Under the pieces are notes generated by a model, which saw only the letters and a list, made by a program, of their open reading frames with translations, was not told where the DNA came from and ran no database searches. From Alphaproteobacteria bacterium (lineage in GTDB: Bacteria > Pseudomonadota > Alphaproteobacteria > Thalassobaculales > Thalassobaculaceae), in NCBI GenBank assembly GCA_024742275.1, contig JANSYS010000008.1, positions 62,001 through 126,000 of the forward strand: 64,000 bases of DNA, written 5' to 3'. How positions within the stretch are numbered: the stretch's first letter is position 1; every line of letters starts with the position of its first letter. Below, piece after piece: positions 391 to 20,279 of this stretch. The position numbers and the translations under genes are program-made.

Positions 391-828
391 TCAGGGCGTT
401 TCCAGAGCGATACTTGGCTTCTCGGCCGTCTCACCGCGACCGAACGCAAGCACCTGCTCTTCATAAGCGATTAATGCTTTACAAGTCTTTAATGCCCTGT
501 AGTAGCGCGCTGCGTTGACATCCTGAACGATGTGCAACAGCGTCCGCCGCACCTCGTTGAAAGTCGTAGCCTCCATGAATTCCTCGATCAGTCTCATGAA
601 GGTCGGGTAGTAGTCCTTGCGTCCTTCATCATCGAGGTACATCAGGAGGATAGAGAAATAGATACGCTTAGCGGGCGTATCCGCCTCCGTCTCCTGCATG
701 ATGTCCTTGCCCAGCAGGATCGTCGCCTCATTCTGCAACACGAGCGACGCACCCTTGTTGCCGGCGACCATGACGGCGCCGTTGACGACGAATTTCTCTC
801 CAGGCTTGATGTTGACCTTTAGCGGCAT
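391..828 (-). CDS. flbT: Flagellin synthesis post-transcriptional repressor FlbT
   Basis: The 145-aa product is full length for FlbT and carries the family N-terminus MPLKVNIKPGEKFVVNGAV. In Caulobacter FlbT binds the 5' untranslated leader of flagellin mRNA and lowers its translation and stability until the hook is finished. flaF follows 18 bp downstream, and two flagellin genes with a shared leader sequence lie 2-4 kb away, so the likely RNA targets are close by. The ribosome binding site upstream of 828 is weak. Divergent from the TPR-glycosyltransferase gene. Confidence 0.94.
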   Translation of the reverse strand: MPLKVNIKPGEKFVVNGAVMVAGNKGASLVLQNEATILLGKDIMQETEADTPAKRIYFSILLMYLDDEGRKDYYPTFMRLIEEFMEATTFNEVRRTLLHIVQDVNAARYYRALKTCKALIAYEEQVLAFGRGETAEKPSIALETP

Positions 829-4039: not shown

Positions 4040-4870
4040 TTACCCGAACAGGCCCAGCAGGGTCTGCGGGCGCTGGTTGGCGATGCCCAGCGTCTGGATC
4101 GACAGCTGCTGCTGCACCTGCTTGGCGGTCAGCCTGGCCGACTCCCGCGCAAGATCAGCATCGACGATGTTGCCCAGACCTTCTTCGGTCGCATCCGAAA
4201 TCTGCTCCAGGAACGAGGTCTGCAGCTCAAGAGCCCGAACCTCGGCACCCAAGGAACCGAGCGCAGAGTTCACCACCGATTCCAGGTTGGAATACTGGTT
4301 GGCGATGACCGCCTGCGTGGATGTGGCCGAACCGACGCTGACCGCGGCCAGCGACAGGGTCTGGGTCCGCAGGTCCTGACCGGTCAGGGTCAGAGTGCCG
4401 CCCGTCAGGTTCGACAGGGTGTTCACGTCCGGAGACGCGGTGGTCGTATCGAGAAGATTGACGCCGTTGAACACCGCGTTGTCGATGAAGTTGGCGGCCT
4501 GCGACAGGAGCTGGTTGAAGTCGCTCGTCAGGATATCCCGCTGAGCGGTCGTGATCCCTTCGTTCGACAGTTCGGTCAGCTTCTGGCGGACCGTCTGCAG
4601 CAGATCGGAGATACCGGTCGTGCCGGCAATCGCGACCTTGCCGATACCCTTCGCGTTGTTCAAACCCTGAGTCACCGCTCCGATTGCCTTGAGCTCACCG
4701 CGAATACCCTGGGCGATAGCGAAGTTCGACGCATCGTCCAGAGCACCGGTGACCTTCAAGCCGGTCGACACACGATTCTGGATCGTGTCGAGCGTCCGGT
4801 TCACGGAGTTGAGGTTGCGAAGGGCCACGAAGGATGCCGGGTTTGTGTTGATGGAGTTCTGTACAGCCAT
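4040..4870 (-). CDS. fliC: Flagellin (copy 2 of the tandem pair)
   Basis: The 276-aa flagellin starts MAVQNSINTNPASF and ends QTLLGLFG. It has the same length and domain layout as copy 1, with differences spread through the central part (for example about residues 145-185). The ATG at 4870 follows a GAGGA site inside the shared leader block. Upstream on the minus strand lies an AT-rich tract with a TTGACA hexamer, so this copy may have a strong vegetative promoter. Two flagellins of identical length suggest duplication with division into early and late or minor and major subunits, which the sequence cannot decide. Confidence 0.95.
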   Translation of the reverse strand: MAVQNSINTNPASFVALRNLNSVNRTLDTIQNRVSTGLKVTGALDDASNFAIAQGIRGELKAIGAVTQGLNNAKGIGKVAIAGTTGISDLLQTVRQKLTELSNEGITTAQRDILTSDFNQLLSQAANFIDNAVFNGVNLLDTTTASPDVNTLSNLTGGTLTLTGQDLRTQTLSLAAVSVGSATSTQAVIANQYSNLESVVNSALGSLGAEVRALELQTSFLEQISDATEEGLGNIVDADLARESARLTAKQVQQQLSIQTLGIANQRPQTLLGLFG

Positions 4871-4877
4871 TGTTCTG

Positions 4878-4893
4878 TCCTCGTTCTAAGGAT
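4878..4893 (-). promoter_or_regulatory. Conserved flagellin leader block (copy 2)
   Basis: Same 16 nt as at 3738-3753 (minus strand ATCCTTAGAACGAGGA), again ending 7 nt before the ATG. Immediately upstream is a 5-bp CCGGC-AAAAA-GCCGG hairpin (about 4900-4914) that is not present before flagellin 1. Confidence 0.65.
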
Positions 4894-4946
4894 GGGTTGC
4901 CCGGCTTTTTGCCGGCCAGAAAACGGATCGCTCCGTCTCGTCCACC

Positions 4947-5012
4947 TTTAAATCACATTGTGTATTCTGATGTCAAGTATTTTAGATAAAAAAATAATGT
5001 ATTTTATATAAT
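4947..5012 (-). promoter_or_regulatory. Possible sigma-70 promoter with UP-like AT tract for flagellin 2
   Basis: On the minus strand a perfect TTGACA (4971-4976) is followed after 18 bp by TTTAAA (4947-4952). Directly upstream, 4977-5012 is almost pure A/T with several A- and T-runs, like an UP element. The -10 match is only 4 of 6. Confidence 0.4.
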
Positions 5013-5145
5013 GTCATTCCGCACCGTTCCGGCTCGCTGCTGCATCTCTCATGCCTTTTCTGGGCAAATGACCGATCACGGCCCGCTCGGCCCGCATTCA
5101 TACCCAGCGTCTAAACCGGAACTGGCGCCTGTTGACCGCTATAGG

Positions 5146-5191
5146 CGGCAAGGCTTGCCGACTGAGGGCACAGGACCGGCAAGTTCTGCCG
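5146..5191. promoter_or_regulatory. Two palindromic enhancer-like sites (candidate FlbD sites)
   Basis: CGGCAAGGCTTGCCG at 5146-5160 and CGGCAAGTTCTGCCG at 5177-5191 are near-identical 15-bp palindromes. Their centres are 31 bp apart, about three helical turns, and lie about 118 and 149 bp upstream of the start predicted from the sigma-54 promoter. This is the usual place for enhancers of sigma-54 activators, and the window encodes one, FlbD. The link to FlbD is inference. Confidence 0.55.
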
Positions 5192-5275
5192 CCGGCCCTT
5201 CCCACCAGCTGACAAACCCGCCGATGACCGCCGGCAATCCCGACGATTTCCGCCCTGAACCATTGTCGACGCTTC

Positions 5276-5291
5276 TGGCCCGCCCTTTGCA
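5276..5291 (+). promoter_or_regulatory. Sigma-54 (-24/-12) promoter of fliK-flgD-flgE
   Basis: TGGCCCG-CCCT-TTGCA differs from the TGGCACG-N4-TTGCW consensus at one base and has the invariant GG (5277-5278) and GC (5289-5290) exactly 10 bp apart. Transcription would start near 5302, 25 bp before the fliK ATG. Confidence 0.75.
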
Positions 5292-5326
5292 AAGGTGTCC
5301 ACGCAACCGACCAGGCAGGTGGGATC

Positions 5327-7060
5327 ATGGACCTCCAAGCAATAGATCCACGGGCATCGTCCCCGTCAGCGAGCAATCGGAAACAACCGGCATCGACCGG
5401 CGGCGTCTTCCAGGGCGTCATGCAGATGATGTCTGACATCGCCGATCGCCGGATCGAGGCGAAGAGCCGCGATACATCGGACACTGCGCCCACGCGACAC
5501 GCGGACCGCACCGAAGACCCTCAAGCCGATGAGCTCCGTACGGACAAGCCTCGCGATAAGGATGATGCGGATCAGGCGAAGGCCGGAGACAAAGAGAAGA
5601 ATCACGATGCGGTCGCCGAGTCGGTCGCCCTCAATCCCGCTACCATCGATCCCGCCGTGATCGCCTCCGCGTCCGAGACGACGACCACCTCCAATGGCGA
5701 CGTCGGCTCCCTAACAGGAACGCGCAACGCACCTCAGGTTTCCGCCCCCCGTTCAACAGCCGCTTCTGCTACGCAGGGTGACGCGGTCGACGGTGCGCGC
5801 GCAGCGAATCCACAGGGGCAGTCGCTCCCGCCGCAGAGCGTTCCGAATCAACCGACGCAGTCCCAATCGGCAACACCCCAATCCCCAGTGGCCGACCAGG
5901 CGTCTGCTGTCGCCCGCATTGTCCCGCCGCCGGTGAAACAAGGCGAGTCGTCGGAGGCGGCGATCAAACTGTCCGGAGCCGGCAACGGCGCCGGACAGAA
6001 GACGGACGGCGCGGCCGGACGGCCCGACGCGCTGATGGGCGCCAAAGTATCCGTCGAAGGGCCCGCTCCGGTCGCTCGATCACAAGGCGTATCCTCGGCC
6101 GTGCTGGTCCAGGCTCAACAGGCTGCCGCGACCGCGCAGCCGCAGTTGCAGACGTCCACGGCGAATGGCGGCGCCGGCACCCTGCATGTCGGAGGCAATC
6201 AACCGACGTTCGTCGGCGCCGACGGCATCGCATCGGGCGGCCAGGGCGCAGCCGGGCAGAACAGCGGTGGCCAGAACAACGCTGGCCAGAACGGCGGCGC
6301 CCAGAACCAAGGGCAGAATACCGGGCAAAACGGTCAGACGAACCCGCAGCAGATCGGCGCCAGCTTTGGCGCGACGATCGGTCAGCGCGGCTTCGGCGGC
6401 GACGCCTCCCGTGCCGAATTTCAGCAAATCCTCGCAACCCGAACCGCTCGGCCACAACCGGCAGCACTGGCCAGCGGCGAGTCCGGACGCCCGATGGGGG
6501 CATCCGGCGGTTCCTTGTCGACGACACCTTTGACCATGGCCGGGGTTGGCGGACCCCAGAGCACGCATACCTCCGCCTCCCTGGTCAACCGGGCGGCCGC
6601 AACCGCTCATGGCCGGCCGGGTGCCACTTTGGGCACCCCGGCCGACCAGGTTGCCGTGAAGCTTTCAGCCACCGCCAAGGATGGCGGCGGAAAAGTCACG
6701 GTGCGCCTGAACCCTGAAGAACTTGGCAAGGTCGACATCAAGATGGAGATCTCGCGGGACGGTCATGTCCGGGCAATCGTCGCAGCCGAGCGCCCTGAGA
6801 CCCTGGAATTGCTCCAGCGAGACGCCAAGGCTCTCGAGCGCGCGCTGCAGGATGCCGGTCTTCAGACCGATGGCGACTCACTGGAGTTCGATCTTCGCGG
6901 TGACGGCGGGAGGTTTGCCGAGAGCTCCGGCGACGAACCCGCGAACAAGCCAGGCGCCGCCCCTGAAATCGATGACGGCGACGTGGTCGCCGATGACCAG
7001 CAGAGCGATACGGGTTCGGGCGGCTTAAAGGCCGACGGCAGCCTCGACATGGTCGCTTAG
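5327..7060 (+). CDS. fliK: Flagellar hook-length control protein FliK
   Basis: The 577-aa protein has a long low-complexity N-terminal and central part rich in Gln, Ala, Gly and Asn (a Gly-Gln-Asn-rich run at about residues 300-345), as expected of the extended ruler region. The C-terminal Flg_hook domain at about residues 435-530 includes VTVRLNPEELGKVDIKM. FliK is secreted during hook growth and switches export from hook to filament substrates. Translation starts at an ATG after GGTGGG. flgD follows 11 bp after the stop, and the set lies behind a sigma-54 promoter, fitting a late hook-class operon. Confidence 0.92.
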   Translation: MDLQAIDPRASSPSASNRKQPASTGGVFQGVMQMMSDIADRRIEAKSRDTSDTAPTRHADRTEDPQADELRTDKPRDKDDADQAKAGDKEKNHDAVAESVALNPATIDPAVIASASETTTTSNGDVGSLTGTRNAPQVSAPRSTAASATQGDAVDGARAANPQGQSLPPQSVPNQPTQSQSATPQSPVADQASAVARIVPPPVKQGESSEAAIKLSGAGNGAGQKTDGAAGRPDALMGAKVSVEGPAPVARSQGVSSAVLVQAQQAAATAQPQLQTSTANGGAGTLHVGGNQPTFVGADGIASGGQGAAGQNSGGQNNAGQNGGAQNQGQNTGQNGQTNPQQIGASFGATIGQRGFGGDASRAEFQQILATRTARPQPAALASGESGRPMGASGGSLSTTPLTMAGVGGPQSTHTSASLVNRAAATAHGRPGATLGTPADQVAVKLSATAKDGGGKVTVRLNPEELGKVDIKMEISRDGHVRAIVAAERPETLELLQRDAKALERALQDAGLQTDGDSLEFDLRGDGGRFAESSGDEPANKPGAAPEIDDGDVVADDQQSDTGSGGLKADGSLDMVA

Positions 7061-7071
7061 GAGGTACGGAT

Positions 7072-7746
7072 ATGGATGTCAGCAGCACCACAAGCACCAG
7101 CTCGAGCACCAGCTCCGGCACCAGCAGCTCGATGACAGGGTTGGCCGATCAGTACGATCAGTTTCTGACCCTGCTGACGACCCAGTTGCAGAACCAGGAT
7201 CCGCTGAACCCCATGGATAACAACCAGATGGTGGATCAGCTCGTGAATTTTGCGTCGGTCGAACAGCAGATCAAGCAGAACGACAACCTCGAGTCGTTGA
7301 TCGGTCTGCTCAACGCCAGCGCCGACGCGGCCGCCGTCTCCTACATCGGCAAGGATGTTCAGGTCGAAGGAGATATCTCCCACTTCGACGGACAGAACCC
7401 GATCACCTTCGGCTACAAGCCCGACAAGGGCGTCGAGGAGTTGACGGTCAAGATCTACGGCTCGGACGGCCAACCGGTCCGCGAGTTCGCGGGCGGCACC
7501 TCCGCTCAGCGGCACGAAATCACCTGGGACGGGACCGACCAGAACGGCGATCCGGTCGAACCCGGCCTCTACTACTTCGCCGTAAGTGCAAAGGACGCCG
7601 ACGACAACACCGTCAAGGCGACCGCGGACATCACGGGCCGAGTGACCGGAACGGAGTTTTCAGACAACGGCCCGGTCGTGCAGATCGGTGACGCCGAATA
7701 CGCGCTGAATGAACTGATTTCAGTGACCGACCGCGGCAACACCTGA
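7072..7746 (+). CDS. flgD: Flagellar hook assembly scaffold FlgD
   Basis: The 224-aa FlgD caps the growing hook and lets FlgE subunits polymerise. After a Ser/Thr-rich start comes the conserved core QFLTLLTTQLQNQDPLNPMD at about residues 27-46, then NNQMV, then the FlgD Ig/tudor-like region with the WDGTDQNGDPVEPGLYY block. A strong AGGAGG precedes the ATG. It lies between fliK and flgE, a standard order. The length is normal for the family. Confidence 0.96.
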   Translation: MDVSSTTSTSSSTSSGTSSSMTGLADQYDQFLTLLTTQLQNQDPLNPMDNNQMVDQLVNFASVEQQIKQNDNLESLIGLLNASADAAAVSYIGKDVQVEGDISHFDGQNPITFGYKPDKGVEELTVKIYGSDGQPVREFAGGTSAQRHEITWDGTDQNGDPVEPGLYYFAVSAKDADDNTVKATADITGRVTGTEFSDNGPVVQIGDAEYALNELISVTDRGNT

Positions 7747-7862
7747 TCGACGATTCTCCGGCCCCAGAAGGTGGCCGGTCTCCCTAGCCAGAAGGCGCTC
7801 TATCAAGCTTCCCGATGCGGACAGCGGCAAGAACCGCGCGCATCCCATGGAGGAAAAGAACA

Positions 7863-9152
7863 ATGAGCGGTATCTATGGTGGCCTCTTCGCAGGCGTGGC
7901 GGCGATCAGCGCCCAGTCCACGGCCTTTGCGGCGATCTCCGACAACATCGCGAACGTCAACACGACCGGCTACAAGGAAACTCGGGTCCGCTTCCAGACC
8001 CTGGTGACCGAGTCGGCGAGCGACACCCAGTTCGCACCGGGCGGCGTCATCGCGCGCCCTTTCACGGATCCAGAGAAACAGGGGCAGATCCAGGGCACGA
8101 CCTCGGACACCGATCTGGCTTTGGTCGGTGAAGGTTTCTTCGTCGTGAACCAGACCGACGGCTCCGAAGGCGAATTCTTCTTCACCCGCGCAGGTTCGTT
8201 CACCCAGGACGAAGACGGCAACCTGGTCAACACTGCAGGCTACTACCTGCAGGGCTGGCGGACCGACACTACTGGCAACATCGTCAACGCTACCACCCAG
8301 GATCTTCTGACCAGCTTGGAGACGGTGAACCTCACCGGCTTCAGCGCGATCGCCAACCCGACGACGCGCATCAACATCGCCGCGAACCTGCCCGCCGCTT
8401 CGGCTACCGGCACGACCGCGACGACCAACCTGACGATCTTCGACTCGCTTGGCACAGACCACCTGCTGACGATCAACTGGACCAAATCGGCCGTTGCCAA
8501 CACTTGGACCTACACCGTCGATCTGACCAACTCCAACGGCAACACGAACCAGGTTGCCGCCGCGCAGACCATCGTATTCAACGGTGACGGCACATTGGAA
8601 AGCGTCGATGGCACCGCCGGTGCAAGCGCCGCGACGGCGTCCACGGCGCTCACCATTCCCGCCAACTTCTTCTCGACGGGTGCGAACGCTTCGACTCCGA
8701 CGGTTGTCTGGGGCACGTTCGACAGCTCGACCGGCCTCGGGCAGTTTGACGACATCTACGAGGCGACGCTGCTGAACCAGGATGGCTCCGGCCCGTCCGA
8801 CCTGCTGCAGGTCGATGTCAACGAGGATGGTCTGATCACCGGTCAGTTCCGAAACGGCGAGTCCCGGGCCCTCTACCAGCTCGCGCTGGCTTCGGTTCCC
8901 GCCGCCACCGAGTTGCGTCAGGAGACAGGCAACGCCTACGCCTTATCCAACGACTCCGGCGAGCTCGTGCTCGGCAGACCCGGCACCCAGGGGCTTGGAT
9001 TCGTCCAGTCCGAAGCGCTGGAACGCTCCACCGTGGATATTTCGGCCGAATTCACCGACCTGATCGTCACCCAGCGCGCCTACTCGGCAGCGACCAGGGT
9101 CATTACAACGGGCGACGAACTCCTGGACGAAATCATCCGCGTCAAGCGTTAG
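7863..9152 (+). CDS. flgE: Flagellar hook protein FlgE
   Basis: The 429-aa hook subunit starts MSGIYGGLFAGVAAIS, with the rod/hook N-terminal motif SDNIANVNTTGYKE at about residues 29-42 and the C-terminal motif of FlgE-family proteins (FTDLIVTQRAYSAATRVITT). The middle part is Thr/Ala/Asn-rich and variable as usual. The frame is open from 7815, but GGAGG at 7849-7853 supports the ATG at 7863. Downstream is an intrinsic terminator, so the operon fliK-flgD-flgE ends here. A CGGCAAG half-site at 7825-7831 resembles the palindromes before fliK. Confidence 0.96.
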   Translation: MSGIYGGLFAGVAAISAQSTAFAAISDNIANVNTTGYKETRVRFQTLVTESASDTQFAPGGVIARPFTDPEKQGQIQGTTSDTDLALVGEGFFVVNQTDGSEGEFFFTRAGSFTQDEDGNLVNTAGYYLQGWRTDTTGNIVNATTQDLLTSLETVNLTGFSAIANPTTRINIAANLPAASATGTTATTNLTIFDSLGTDHLLTINWTKSAVANTWTYTVDLTNSNGNTNQVAAAQTIVFNGDGTLESVDGTAGASAATASTALTIPANFFSTGANASTPTVVWGTFDSSTGLGQFDDIYEATLLNQDGSGPSDLLQVDVNEDGLITGQFRNGESRALYQLALASVPAATELRQETGNAYALSNDSGELVLGRPGTQGLGFVQSEALERSTVDISAEFTDLIVTQRAYSAATRVITTGDELLDEIIRVKR

Positions 9153-15616: not shown

Positions 15617-17053
15617 ATGCGTCTGTTGATCGTCGGAACCCTGGAAGGCCACATCAGCGCGGCCGGCCAAATCGCGCTTCAGCGCGGCGCGAAGGTGAGC
15701 CACGTTGACGATATCGAGGCGGGGCTGAAGATCCTGCGCGAGGGGCCAGGCGCCGACCTGACCATGGTCGATGTCCGCGAGCCGGTCGCCAAGATGCTGA
15801 AGCAGATGAAGCAGGAGCGCATCAACTGCCCGGTGGTCGCCTGCGGCGTTCAGTCGGATCCGGACGCGGCCGTCGCCGCGATCCGCGCCGGGGCCAAGGA
15901 ATACATGCCCCTGCCCCCGAACGCCGAACTGATCGCCGCCATCCTGGCCGCCGTCGCCGAGGAGCAGACCAGTGTCATCTTCCGCGATCCGATCATGGCG
16001 GGCGTCCTCAAGCTCGCCGATCAGATCGCTCCGTCCGATGCCAGCGTCCTGATCACCGGCGAGTCCGGCACCGGTAAGGAAGTGCTGGCCCGCTACGTCC
16101 ACTCGAAGTCCCGGCGAGCAAACGACAAGTTCGTGTCGGTGAACTGCGCGGCGATCCCGGACAATCTGCTCGAGTCTGAGCTGTTCGGCCACGAGAAGGG
16201 CGCCTTTACCGGCGCCGTCGCAAAGCGGATCGGCAAGTTCGAGGAAGCCAACGGCGGAACGCTGCTGCTGGACGAGATCAGCGAGATGGATATCCGTCTT
16301 CAGGCCAAGCTGCTGCGGGCGATCCAGGAGCGCGAGATCGACAGGGTCGGAGGAAGCACGCCGGTCAAGGTCGACATCCGCCTGATCGCAACTTCGAACC
16401 GCGACCTGGAGCGCCATGTCCAGGAAGGCCACTTCCGCGAGGATCTCTATTTCCGGCTCAACGTGTTCAACCTCCAGCTTCCGGCGCTGCGCGACCGGCC
16501 CGGCGACATCAGGGCGCTGGCCGGTCATTTCGCGAAGAAATACGCCGAAGCCAACGCTATGCCGGAGCGGAAGCTGACGGAGACGGCCTTGTCCCGGCTC
16601 GAGAGCCATACGTGGCGCGGCAACGTTCGCGAGCTTGAGAATACGCTGCACAGGGCGGTGCTGCTGGCCCAGGGCGACGAGATCGACGTGGACGCGATCA
16701 TGCTCACAGGCGAAGGCATGACCCCCGCCTCGCCGACCCCGGCGTTCTCCAGCGCGCCGAGGACCGAGGCACCGGCGCCGCCGGCACCATCGGCCACCGC
16801 TGCGGCCCCGGCGGCCGCGCCGCCTGCGCCAGCCGAGTCCGCGTCCGGTGCCGATACCGGCGCTCTGGTCGGACGTACGGTCGCCGACGTGGAGCGCCAC
16901 CTGATCATCGACACCCTGTCCCATTGCCTCGGCAATCGGACGCATGCCGCGAACATTCTCGGCATTTCCATCCGGACCCTGCGCAACAAGGTCAAGCAAT
17001 ACACGGATGAAGGCTACAACGTGCCCTCCCCGAGCGACCGGGCTGCAGGGTGA
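15617..17053 (+). CDS. flbD: Sigma-54-dependent flagellar transcription activator FlbD
   Basis: The 478-aa enhancer-binding protein has an atypical receiver domain (1-115), an AAA+ domain (about 125-350) with Walker A GESGTGKE at 148-155, the sigma-54 contact loop GAFTGA at 195-200 and Walker B TLLLDE at 215-220, then a Pro/Ala linker (370-410) and a Fis-type helix-turn-helix (about 440-462). The receiver has LLIVGTLEGH where phosphorylated receivers have an acidic pair, so activation probably does not depend on a kinase, as for Caulobacter FlbD. It likely drives the sigma-54 promoter before fliK. GGAG precedes the ATG. Confidence 0.93.
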   Translation: MRLLIVGTLEGHISAAGQIALQRGAKVSHVDDIEAGLKILREGPGADLTMVDVREPVAKMLKQMKQERINCPVVACGVQSDPDAAVAAIRAGAKEYMPLPPNAELIAAILAAVAEEQTSVIFRDPIMAGVLKLADQIAPSDASVLITGESGTGKEVLARYVHSKSRRANDKFVSVNCAAIPDNLLESELFGHEKGAFTGAVAKRIGKFEEANGGTLLLDEISEMDIRLQAKLLRAIQEREIDRVGGSTPVKVDIRLIATSNRDLERHVQEGHFREDLYFRLNVFNLQLPALRDRPGDIRALAGHFAKKYAEANAMPERKLTETALSRLESHTWRGNVRELENTLHRAVLLAQGDEIDVDAIMLTGEGMTPASPTPAFSSAPRTEAPAPPAPSATAAAPAAAPPAPAESASGADTGALVGRTVADVERHLIIDTLSHCLGNRTHAANILGISIRTLRNKVKQYTDEGYNVPSPSDRAAG

Positions 17054-19319: not shown

Positions 19320-20279
19320 ATGCGCCTAAAGACCTTCACTGCGCCCTCGATGAACGAGGCCATGCAGCTCGTTAAGACCCATCTGGGACCAGAGGCGATC
19401 ATCGTCTCGACCCAGAAGGGCGAAGGCGGGCTCGGGGTAAGGCTGACCGCGGCCATAGAAGCGCCCGAGGACGAGGACGTCTGGGACTACGACGAGGATC
19501 AGGCGGATCCCATCGACGAGATCGTCGAGGCGCTGGCCCATCACAACGTCTCCGCCGACCTGTCCGAGAAACTCACGCGGATCGCGAGCTCCCTGGACGC
19601 GGACGATGCGAAGTTGGCGCTGGCCGGCGCTCTGGACCAGCACTTCAAATTCCAGCCGTTGCCGGTCAATGGGACCCGACCGATCGTCCTGGTCGGCCTC
19701 CCCGGAGCGGGCAAGACGGTCACCACCGCCAAGCTGGCGACCCGCCAGGTAATGAAGAAGAAGCCGGTGAACGTCATCACGACCGATACCGTGCGCGCCG
19801 GTGGATTCGACCAGCTCGAAGCATTCACCCGACTGTTGAAAGTCGAGTTGCAGACGGCCGGCACCGCCGACGAATTGAGCGACGCGGTCGCGGCGGGCGC
19901 GCCTGGAACGTTGACCCTGATCGACTGCGCCGGCGGAAACCCATTCGATCCCGACGATCTGGAGAAACAGCGCCGTTTGATCGAAGGCCTGGACGCAGAG
20001 ATGGTCCTGGTCATGGCCGCCGGAACGGACCCGTTGGATGCCGTCGACCAGGCGCGGGCTTATGCCCGGATCGGTGCGCGAAGACTGATCGCGACGAGGC
20101 TCGACATCGCCCGACGCCTCGGTTCGATCCTGGCGGCGGCGGATGCCGGACGCCTCGCGTTTGCGGAGGTGGGCATCGGATCCGGGGTGGCCGATGGCCT
20201 CGGACCGCTCAACCCCGTGTCTCTGGCGCGACTCTTGCTTCCCAACGAGCACTCAGCACGCGAGGAAGCGGCGGAATGA
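19320..20279 (+). CDS. flhF: SRP-type GTPase FlhF
   Basis: The 319-aa protein starts with the FlhF N-terminal motif (MRLKTFTAPSMNEAMQLVK), then an N-domain, then an SRP-GTPase G domain with P-loop GLPGAGKT at 126-133 and TTDTVRAGGFDQL. G3 reads DCAGG rather than DTAGR and G4 is TRLD, so GTP handling may differ from canonical FlhF. FlhF places the flagellum at the pole together with FlhG. The stop overlaps the flhG open frame by 4 bp (ATGA). Confidence 0.9.
   Translation: MRLKTFTAPSMNEAMQLVKTHLGPEAIIVSTQKGEGGLGVRLTAAIEAPEDEDVWDYDEDQADPIDEIVEALAHHNVSADLSEKLTRIASSLDADDAKLALAGALDQHFKFQPLPVNGTRPIVLVGLPGAGKTVTTAKLATRQVMKKKPVNVITTDTVRAGGFDQLEAFTRLLKVELQTAGTADELSDAVAAGAPGTLTLIDCAGGNPFDPDDLEKQRRLIEGLDAEMVLVMAAGTDPLDAVDQARAYARIGARRLIATRLDIARRLGSILAAADAGRLAFAEVGIGSGVADGLGPLNPVSLARLLLPNEHSAREEAAE

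Follow-up and report, generated by a model that had tools for sequence, protein, structure and literature searches.

Transcription by sigma-54 RNA polymerase requires an AAA+ activator, which is usually bound upstream of the promoter. In Caulobacter, the sigma-54 targets of FlbD and its ftr sites include, besides fliK, flgF, flgI and the hook operon, and ChIP data for Caulobacter FlbD have reportedly been published. A site for IHF between enhancer and promoter is known in Caulobacter and is not known to be a required feature. Sites are called ftr-like here by reference to the letters that we take to be the ftr consensus. FlbD binds ftr motifs (PMC3930126). In C. crescentus, loss of FliX lowers the activity of a fliK reporter and raises that of a fliF reporter, which the authors consider to agree with activation of class III and repression of class II genes by FlbD (PMC3096577).

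Here we analysed a stretch of 64,000 nucleotides of alphaproteobacterial DNA (the window), in which two palindromes lie between fliK and a divergent flagellin gene. By analogy with Caulobacter, these palindromes are very probably FlbD enhancers of a sigma-54 promoter of fliK, and are probably shared with the flagellin gene. The features on which the analysis is based are the following:

391-828, minus strand: flbT, by family a flagellin translation regulator (PF07378, E 4e-40)
4040-4870, minus strand: divergent flagellin gene
4972-5014, minus strand: strongly conserved A+T-rich block of putative role (congener alignment)
5056-5041, minus strand: weak sigma-54-like element, AGGCATGAGAGATGCA, oriented towards the flagellin gene (3 mismatches; predicted start at about 5030)
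5146-5160, no strand: palindrome 1, CGGCAAGGCTTGCCG, putative member of a twin FlbD-type (ftr-like) enhancer (exact CGGCAAGSCTTGCCG in 4/4 congeners)
5177-5191, no strand: palindrome 2, CGGCAAGTTCTGCCG (1 mismatch to CGGCAN5TGCCG in G002, G003 and G004)
5276-5291, plus strand: predicted sigma-54 -24/-12 promoter of fliK, TGGCCCGCCCTTTGCA (letters re-read; TGGCCCG-N4-TTGCA in 4/4 congeners)
5302, plus strand: predicted transcription start of fliK-flgD-flgE, placed from the -12 element at 5290
5312-5330, plus strand: ribosome-site and start block CAGGCAGGTGGGATCATGG (identical in 4/4 congeners)
5327-7060, plus strand: fliK, hook-length control protein, 577 aa (PF02120, E 2.8e-15)
7072-7746, plus strand: flgD, hook cap (FlgD-type NCBIfam models, E 1.5e-41 to 4e-40, under the curated cut-offs)
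7815-9152, plus strand: flgE, hook protein (TIGR03506 above cut-off; FlgE model E 9e-104, slightly under cut-off)
15617-17053, plus strand: flbD, proposed binder, with GAFTGA and a C-terminal helix-turn-helix (NF050807, 764.7 bits, cut-off 750)

An earlier note on this DNA had described a -24/-12 sequence before fliK with GG and GC spaced exactly 10 bp, two 15-bp palindromes 31 bp apart at about -149 and -118, and a gene for FlbD in the window. Re-reading of the letters and the above-threshold match to the FlbD model bear out all of this, and the coordinates of the promoter (TGGCCCG-CCCT-TTGCA) are right. By direct reading, GG lies at 5277-5278 and GC at 5289-5290, and the sequence has one mismatch to the consensus TGGCACG-N4-TTGCW. 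The assignment of 5276-5291 as the sigma-54 promoter of fliK, with a predicted start at 5302, is well supported by homology; the fliK ATG at 5327 would follow this start by 25 nt. Palindrome 1 is a perfect 7+1+7 repeat, CGGCAAG-G-CTTGCCG, centred at -149 from the predicted start. Palindrome 2 is centred at -118, with pairing limited to the outer CGGCA/TGCCG arms, and the 31 bp between the two centres correspond to about three helical turns. An inverted repeat at a distance of at least about 100 bp from a predicted flagellar sigma-54 promoter is also the layout of Caulobacter fliK. No IHF-like site with up to 2 mismatches was found between the twin palindromes and the fliK promoter (5192-5275).

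In the window, CGGCANNNNNTGCCG has 2 matches, compared with a mean of 0.20 in shuffled sequences, of which 1 in 100 reaches 2, and CGGCAN5TGCCG occurs at no places beyond the two palindromes. A pair of palindromes within 31 bp is found once in the window and in none of 100 window shuffles. The promoter pattern TGGCNCGNNNNTTGCW also has 2 matches there (shuffle mean 0.04; 0/100 reach 2). Across the genome (4.69 Mb), this pattern has 8 matches versus 5 for the reversed control, so that on their own the promoter letters do not stand out genome-wide. The palindrome pattern CGGCARNNNYTGCCG has 9 exact places in the genome versus 23 for its reversed control. Four of these belong to the flagellar cluster (C87:32111, 52022, 67146 and 67177, with the palindromes upstream of fliK at 67146 and 67177); a fifth is at C48:320291, and there are four others. 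A chance match for the palindromes and promoter was ruled out by the window shuffles, the conservation in congeners and the class-wide counts given below.

Inverted repeats may also act as RNA hairpins or terminators rather than as protein sites, and the predicted RNA fold of the segment 5140-5200 is unusually stable (z -3.4). However, the repeats lie upstream of the predicted start, and no terminator-like site is present in 4850-5350. Moreover, the inner bases of the palindromes are biased, in that, of the 30 places inspected across the class, 27 have R as the sixth base and 28 have Y as the tenth, a preference that would be needless for a hairpin loop. On these grounds we rejected an RNA hairpin or terminator, which we consider extremely improbable, and treat the palindromes as candidate protein sites.

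We aligned the intergenic region between fliK and the flagellin gene from four congeners, namely the window's own genome (G000), G002, G003 and G004. Both palindromes, the -24/-12 element and the start block form conserved islands amid scrambled linkers. The alignment runs from the A+T-rich block through a largely unalignable stretch to palindrome 1, a variable linker and palindrome 2. Beyond these come the sigma-54 element and then the start block, each preceded by variable sequence. In G002, G003 and G004, the spacing of the palindromes is 32 bp, and palindrome 2 carries a single mismatch in its arms. The distance from palindrome 1 to the fliK start is 148, 158, 148 and 148 bp in G000, G002, G003 and G004, as counted by a script that gives one base less than counting from 5302. 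The extra 10 bp of enhancer distance in G002 would keep the helical face.

Outside the genus, the pairing of palindrome and sigma-54 site is weaker yet present. Among 20 loci upstream of flgD, which include three congeners and two loci running into contig ends (L051 and L065), 14 have a sigma-54 site (up to 2 mismatches) with a palindrome (up to 1 mismatch) upstream, as read by eye from the list. In one of these 14 (L059), the palindrome is only 23 bp from the sigma-54 site. The pairing is absent in the remaining 6 of the 20.

The same intergenic region also faces the flagellin gene. A weak sigma-54-like element conserved in position, which the earlier note does not mention, is present there at 5056-5041. 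Its GG and GC are ten bases apart, and it occurs at nearly the same position in all four congeners with 2-4 mismatches to the consensus. A shared element of this kind was found in none of 2000 letter shuffles, a test that was set up after the element had been noticed. Palindromes 1 and 2 lie at about -123 and -154 from the predicted flagellin start; by script count, palindrome 1 is 108-122 bp upstream of that start in the four congeners. Among 16 scanned loci (L049-L064), a divergent sigma-54 site was also found in G010 (2 mismatches) and G039 (1 mismatch), in both cases with a palindrome upstream of it.

One could argue that the palindromes serve the flagellin gene alone and not fliK. The intergenic region is shared, the palindromes keep a near-constant 266-278 bp from the flagellin gene start in the four congeners, and the sigma-54-like element faces flagellin. 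However, the fliK-side promoter is far nearer to the consensus and is also conserved, and across the class such palindromes precede the sigma-54 sites of, among others, fliK and flgE. We regard exclusive use by flagellin as very improbable, because shared use covers most of what that reading would explain. Instead, given the conserved element facing flagellin, the twin sites probably serve both genes, and we think it rather likely that they also drive the flagellin gene from 5056-5041. With the twin sites between two divergent sigma-54 promoters, the A+T-rich block at 4972-5014 would probably be the leader of the flagellin mRNA, if transcription starts near 5030. In Caulobacter, FlbT binds the flagellin leader (PMC3930126).

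We searched 385 alphaproteobacterial genomes for the palindrome followed by 55-85 bases and a sigma-54 site, with the same pattern read backwards as control. We found 43 places in 39 genomes versus 1 for the reversed pattern, with the caveat that the palindrome taken alone has more matches when read backwards than in its true form (23 versus 9 in the window's genome). Downstream genes were inspected at 30 of the 43 places. The arrangement recurs before flagellar genes at 15 of them, namely flgB (1), fliK (4, of which L138 was called by resemblance to L137), flgD (1), flgE (4), flgF (1), flgJ (1) and flagellin (3). Five places precede GGDEF proteins (L134, L135, L147, L151 and L156) and two precede EF-hand proteins (L153 and L160). 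The remaining eight are unassigned; six of them were scanned and gave no Pfam match downstream (L133, L141, L146, L155, L161 and L162). The other two are L159 and L157, of which the latter, by eye, resembles a chance match within coding sequence. The suggestion that the motif is specific to this lineage thus does not hold; the window carries a symmetrical form of a kind of site found class-wide.

Most of these sites are paired. A second site with up to 2 mismatches is present at 25/30 places (mean 4.1 and maximum 10 in letter-shuffled flanks), and one with up to 1 mismatch at 15/30 (mean 0.36, maximum 3). By eye, twin spacings across the class seem to cluster at about 13, 18-20, 31-35 and 40-42 bp, and the 31-bp spacing of the window falls in the 31-35 group. 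An IHF-like site (up to 1 mismatch) is present in the spacer at 12 of the 30 places, with a shuffle mean of 0.9 and a maximum of 3.

Which protein binds these sites can be addressed from the distribution of FlbD. The window's genome encodes RpoN (TIGR02395, 431 bits, cut-off 277) and, on the same contig as the window, FliX (C87:49290-49691; PF10768, 118 bits). A strong FlbD match was found in 33 of the 39 genomes with the motif and in 149 of the 346 others (Fisher p 7e-7, from lists compared by hand and with relatedness and genome size ignored). The recognition region GNRTHAA(N/T)ILGISIRTLRNK is common to all 13 aligned FlbD proteins, two of them from Caulobacterales (G311 and G388); the FlgE of G311 is identical to that of a named Brevundimonas.

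In five named Caulobacter loci, of which two genes were confirmed as fliK, CGGCAAAAN(G/C)CGCCG is present at -107 or -99 of the sigma-54 site before fliK. Among 13 Caulobacterales loci, seven have such a site upstream of sigma-54 (the five Caulobacter loci, Asticcacaulis endophyticus and G388). The other six lack it, four of them of Brevundimonas type, though Brevundimonas FlbD has the same helix. In all, 14 of 80 named Caulobacterales loci were examined, the majority picked because they are named Caulobacter.

An NtrC-family sigma-54 activator other than FlbD might bind the palindromes: besides FlbD, the FlbD model matches five more times in the genome at E <=0.001, and no FlbD match above the threshold was obtained for 6 of the 39 motif genomes, although three of these six are less than 90% complete. 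We nevertheless consider this unlikely. Motif genomes are enriched for FlbD, half of the inspected class-wide targets are flagellar, and Caulobacter fliK, which is FliX-dependent (PMC3096577), has the same kind of site. Moreover, in three genomes with flgD and no strong FlbD match (G043, G047 and G057), no palindrome was found in about 2 kb before flgD, despite a perfect sigma-54 site before this gene in G047. Taken together, the congener islands, the class-wide recurrence, the FlbD enrichment and the sites at Caulobacter fliK support the earlier proposal that fliK has a sigma-54 promoter and that the twin palindromes are its FlbD-type enhancers.

Further sites in the genome extend this picture. 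On the same contig and outside the window, an exact CGGCAAATCCTGCCG sits at the fliE-fliQ junction, about 33 bp upstream of fliQ (C87:32111-32125; in L067). Among the best 30 of 42 matches to fliQ, the 200 bp upstream of the gene contain an exact site in 13/30 and one with up to 1 mismatch in 18/30, compared with 0.01 and 0.27, respectively, in letter shuffles. The exact sites were found at 13 of 26 loci of the window's family and at 0 of 4 outside it, again within the best 30 of 42 matches; as all 13 cases belong to this family, the fliQ palindrome is, in this sample, a trait of that family. Exact fliQ palindromes sit about 20-55 bp before the gene, with gene starts extrapolated by alignment, and no sigma-54 sequence was seen by eye at these palindromes. 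The flgB promoter lies 1.4 kb upstream of the fliQ palindrome in the direction of the operon.

The fliQ palindrome is likely an FlbD site at an early gene. In C. crescentus, fliQ is CtrA-activated (PMC6180460). Since FlbD represses class II genes there, repression would be a likelier role for this site, by analogy, than that of a downstream enhancer for flgB. Among the entries listed, titles and the first parts of abstracts revealed no literature on an FlbD site at fliQ or at GGDEF genes, in a search that placed most subscription papers outside its scope.

At C48:320291, a palindrome lies at -127 of a perfect sigma-54 sequence, TGGCACGCGGATTGCT, which was found independently by the promoter scan (C48:320181-320305; L011, L267). 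It precedes an uncharacterised gene of 261 aa that belongs to no Pfam family. G004 shares this arrangement, and the letters of the site recur in G002 and G003. The gene at L162 shares 49% identity over 109 aa with the C48 gene, and palindrome and sigma-54 site precede both.

Other flagellar promoters of the window's genome show less. No clear palindrome was found there upstream of the sigma-54 promoters of flgB and flgK (the latter compared in two genomes), and the flgI promoter has only a degenerate conserved stretch. At flgF, a conserved site is present at -192 in G002 and G004, with a one-mismatch site at -205 in the window's genome. An exact palindrome also lies immediately behind the flgI-flgJ-flgN-like operon, between convergent genes (C87:52022-52036; L068); it occurs in G002 and G030 as well and is imperfect in G004. 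Within the window, a second good sigma-54 match is located at 20224-20239, within the end of flhF and before flhG, with a one-mismatch palindrome upstream.

On the basis of these data, we propose that sigma-54 RNA polymerase would wait at the fliK -24/-12 element as a closed complex. FlbD would bind the palindromes at -149 and -118, about three turns apart, and then assemble. The bound FlbD may then loop to the polymerase, and its GAFTGA-containing AAA+ domain would open the promoter at a time set by completion of the basal body and the export gate. FliX, which controls FlbD in Caulobacter, may link FlbD activation to assembly of the basal body. We infer both the start at 5302 and assembly as the signal from homology to Caulobacter.

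A wider model has, in our view, about an even chance of being right. In the window's family, FlbD may act as a two-way switch, with the twin enhancer driving fliK and flagellin, and the fliQ palindrome either repressing early export genes or acting as an enhancer of flgB-flgC-fliE located 1.4 kb downstream. In other alphaproteobacteria, FlbD may drive sigma-54 genes for GGDEF and EF-hand proteins. If true, the two-way switch would give FlbD a reach longer than the known hook promoters, and control of GGDEF genes would tie flagellar assembly to c-di-GMP. The mostly paired site model CGGCAR-N3-YTGCCG is sharp and testable, and concerns a flagellar assembly checkpoint outside Caulobacter. It allows prediction of the FlbD regulon in many alphaproteobacteria, including divergent flagellin, fliQ and signalling genes.

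Comparing the locus with known systems, the activators FlrC, FleR and FlgR of other polar flagellates resemble FlbD as NtrC-type proteins that act on sigma-54 rod and hook genes after the export gate has been built. They differ from FlbD in being response regulators with a kinase, whereas FlbD has no cognate kinase and acts together with FliX (PMC7064773 for both points).

The Caulobacter FlbD/ftr system has the following in common with the window: a sigma-54 -24/-12 promoter with an inverted repeat about 100-150 bp upstream that has a CGGCA arm, the same FlbD helix, an encoded FliX and fliK as a target. A divergent sigma-54 pair with ftr elements is likewise known there from flaN/flbG. However, the arms are symmetrical in the window (CGGCA/TGCCG), whereas the five Caulobacter loci have the CGGCAAAA..CGCCG variant. 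The window, moreover, has a twin with 31-32 bp spacing at about -149/-118 in place of sites at -107 or -99, and it differs from Caulobacter in having no IHF-like site. Control by FlbD, ftr and sigma-54 is known as a kind from Caulobacter, and the control region before fliK is a well-preserved relative. It contributes a cleaner model of the site, a use probably shared with flagellin, the twin spacing and the extensions to fliQ and GGDEF genes.
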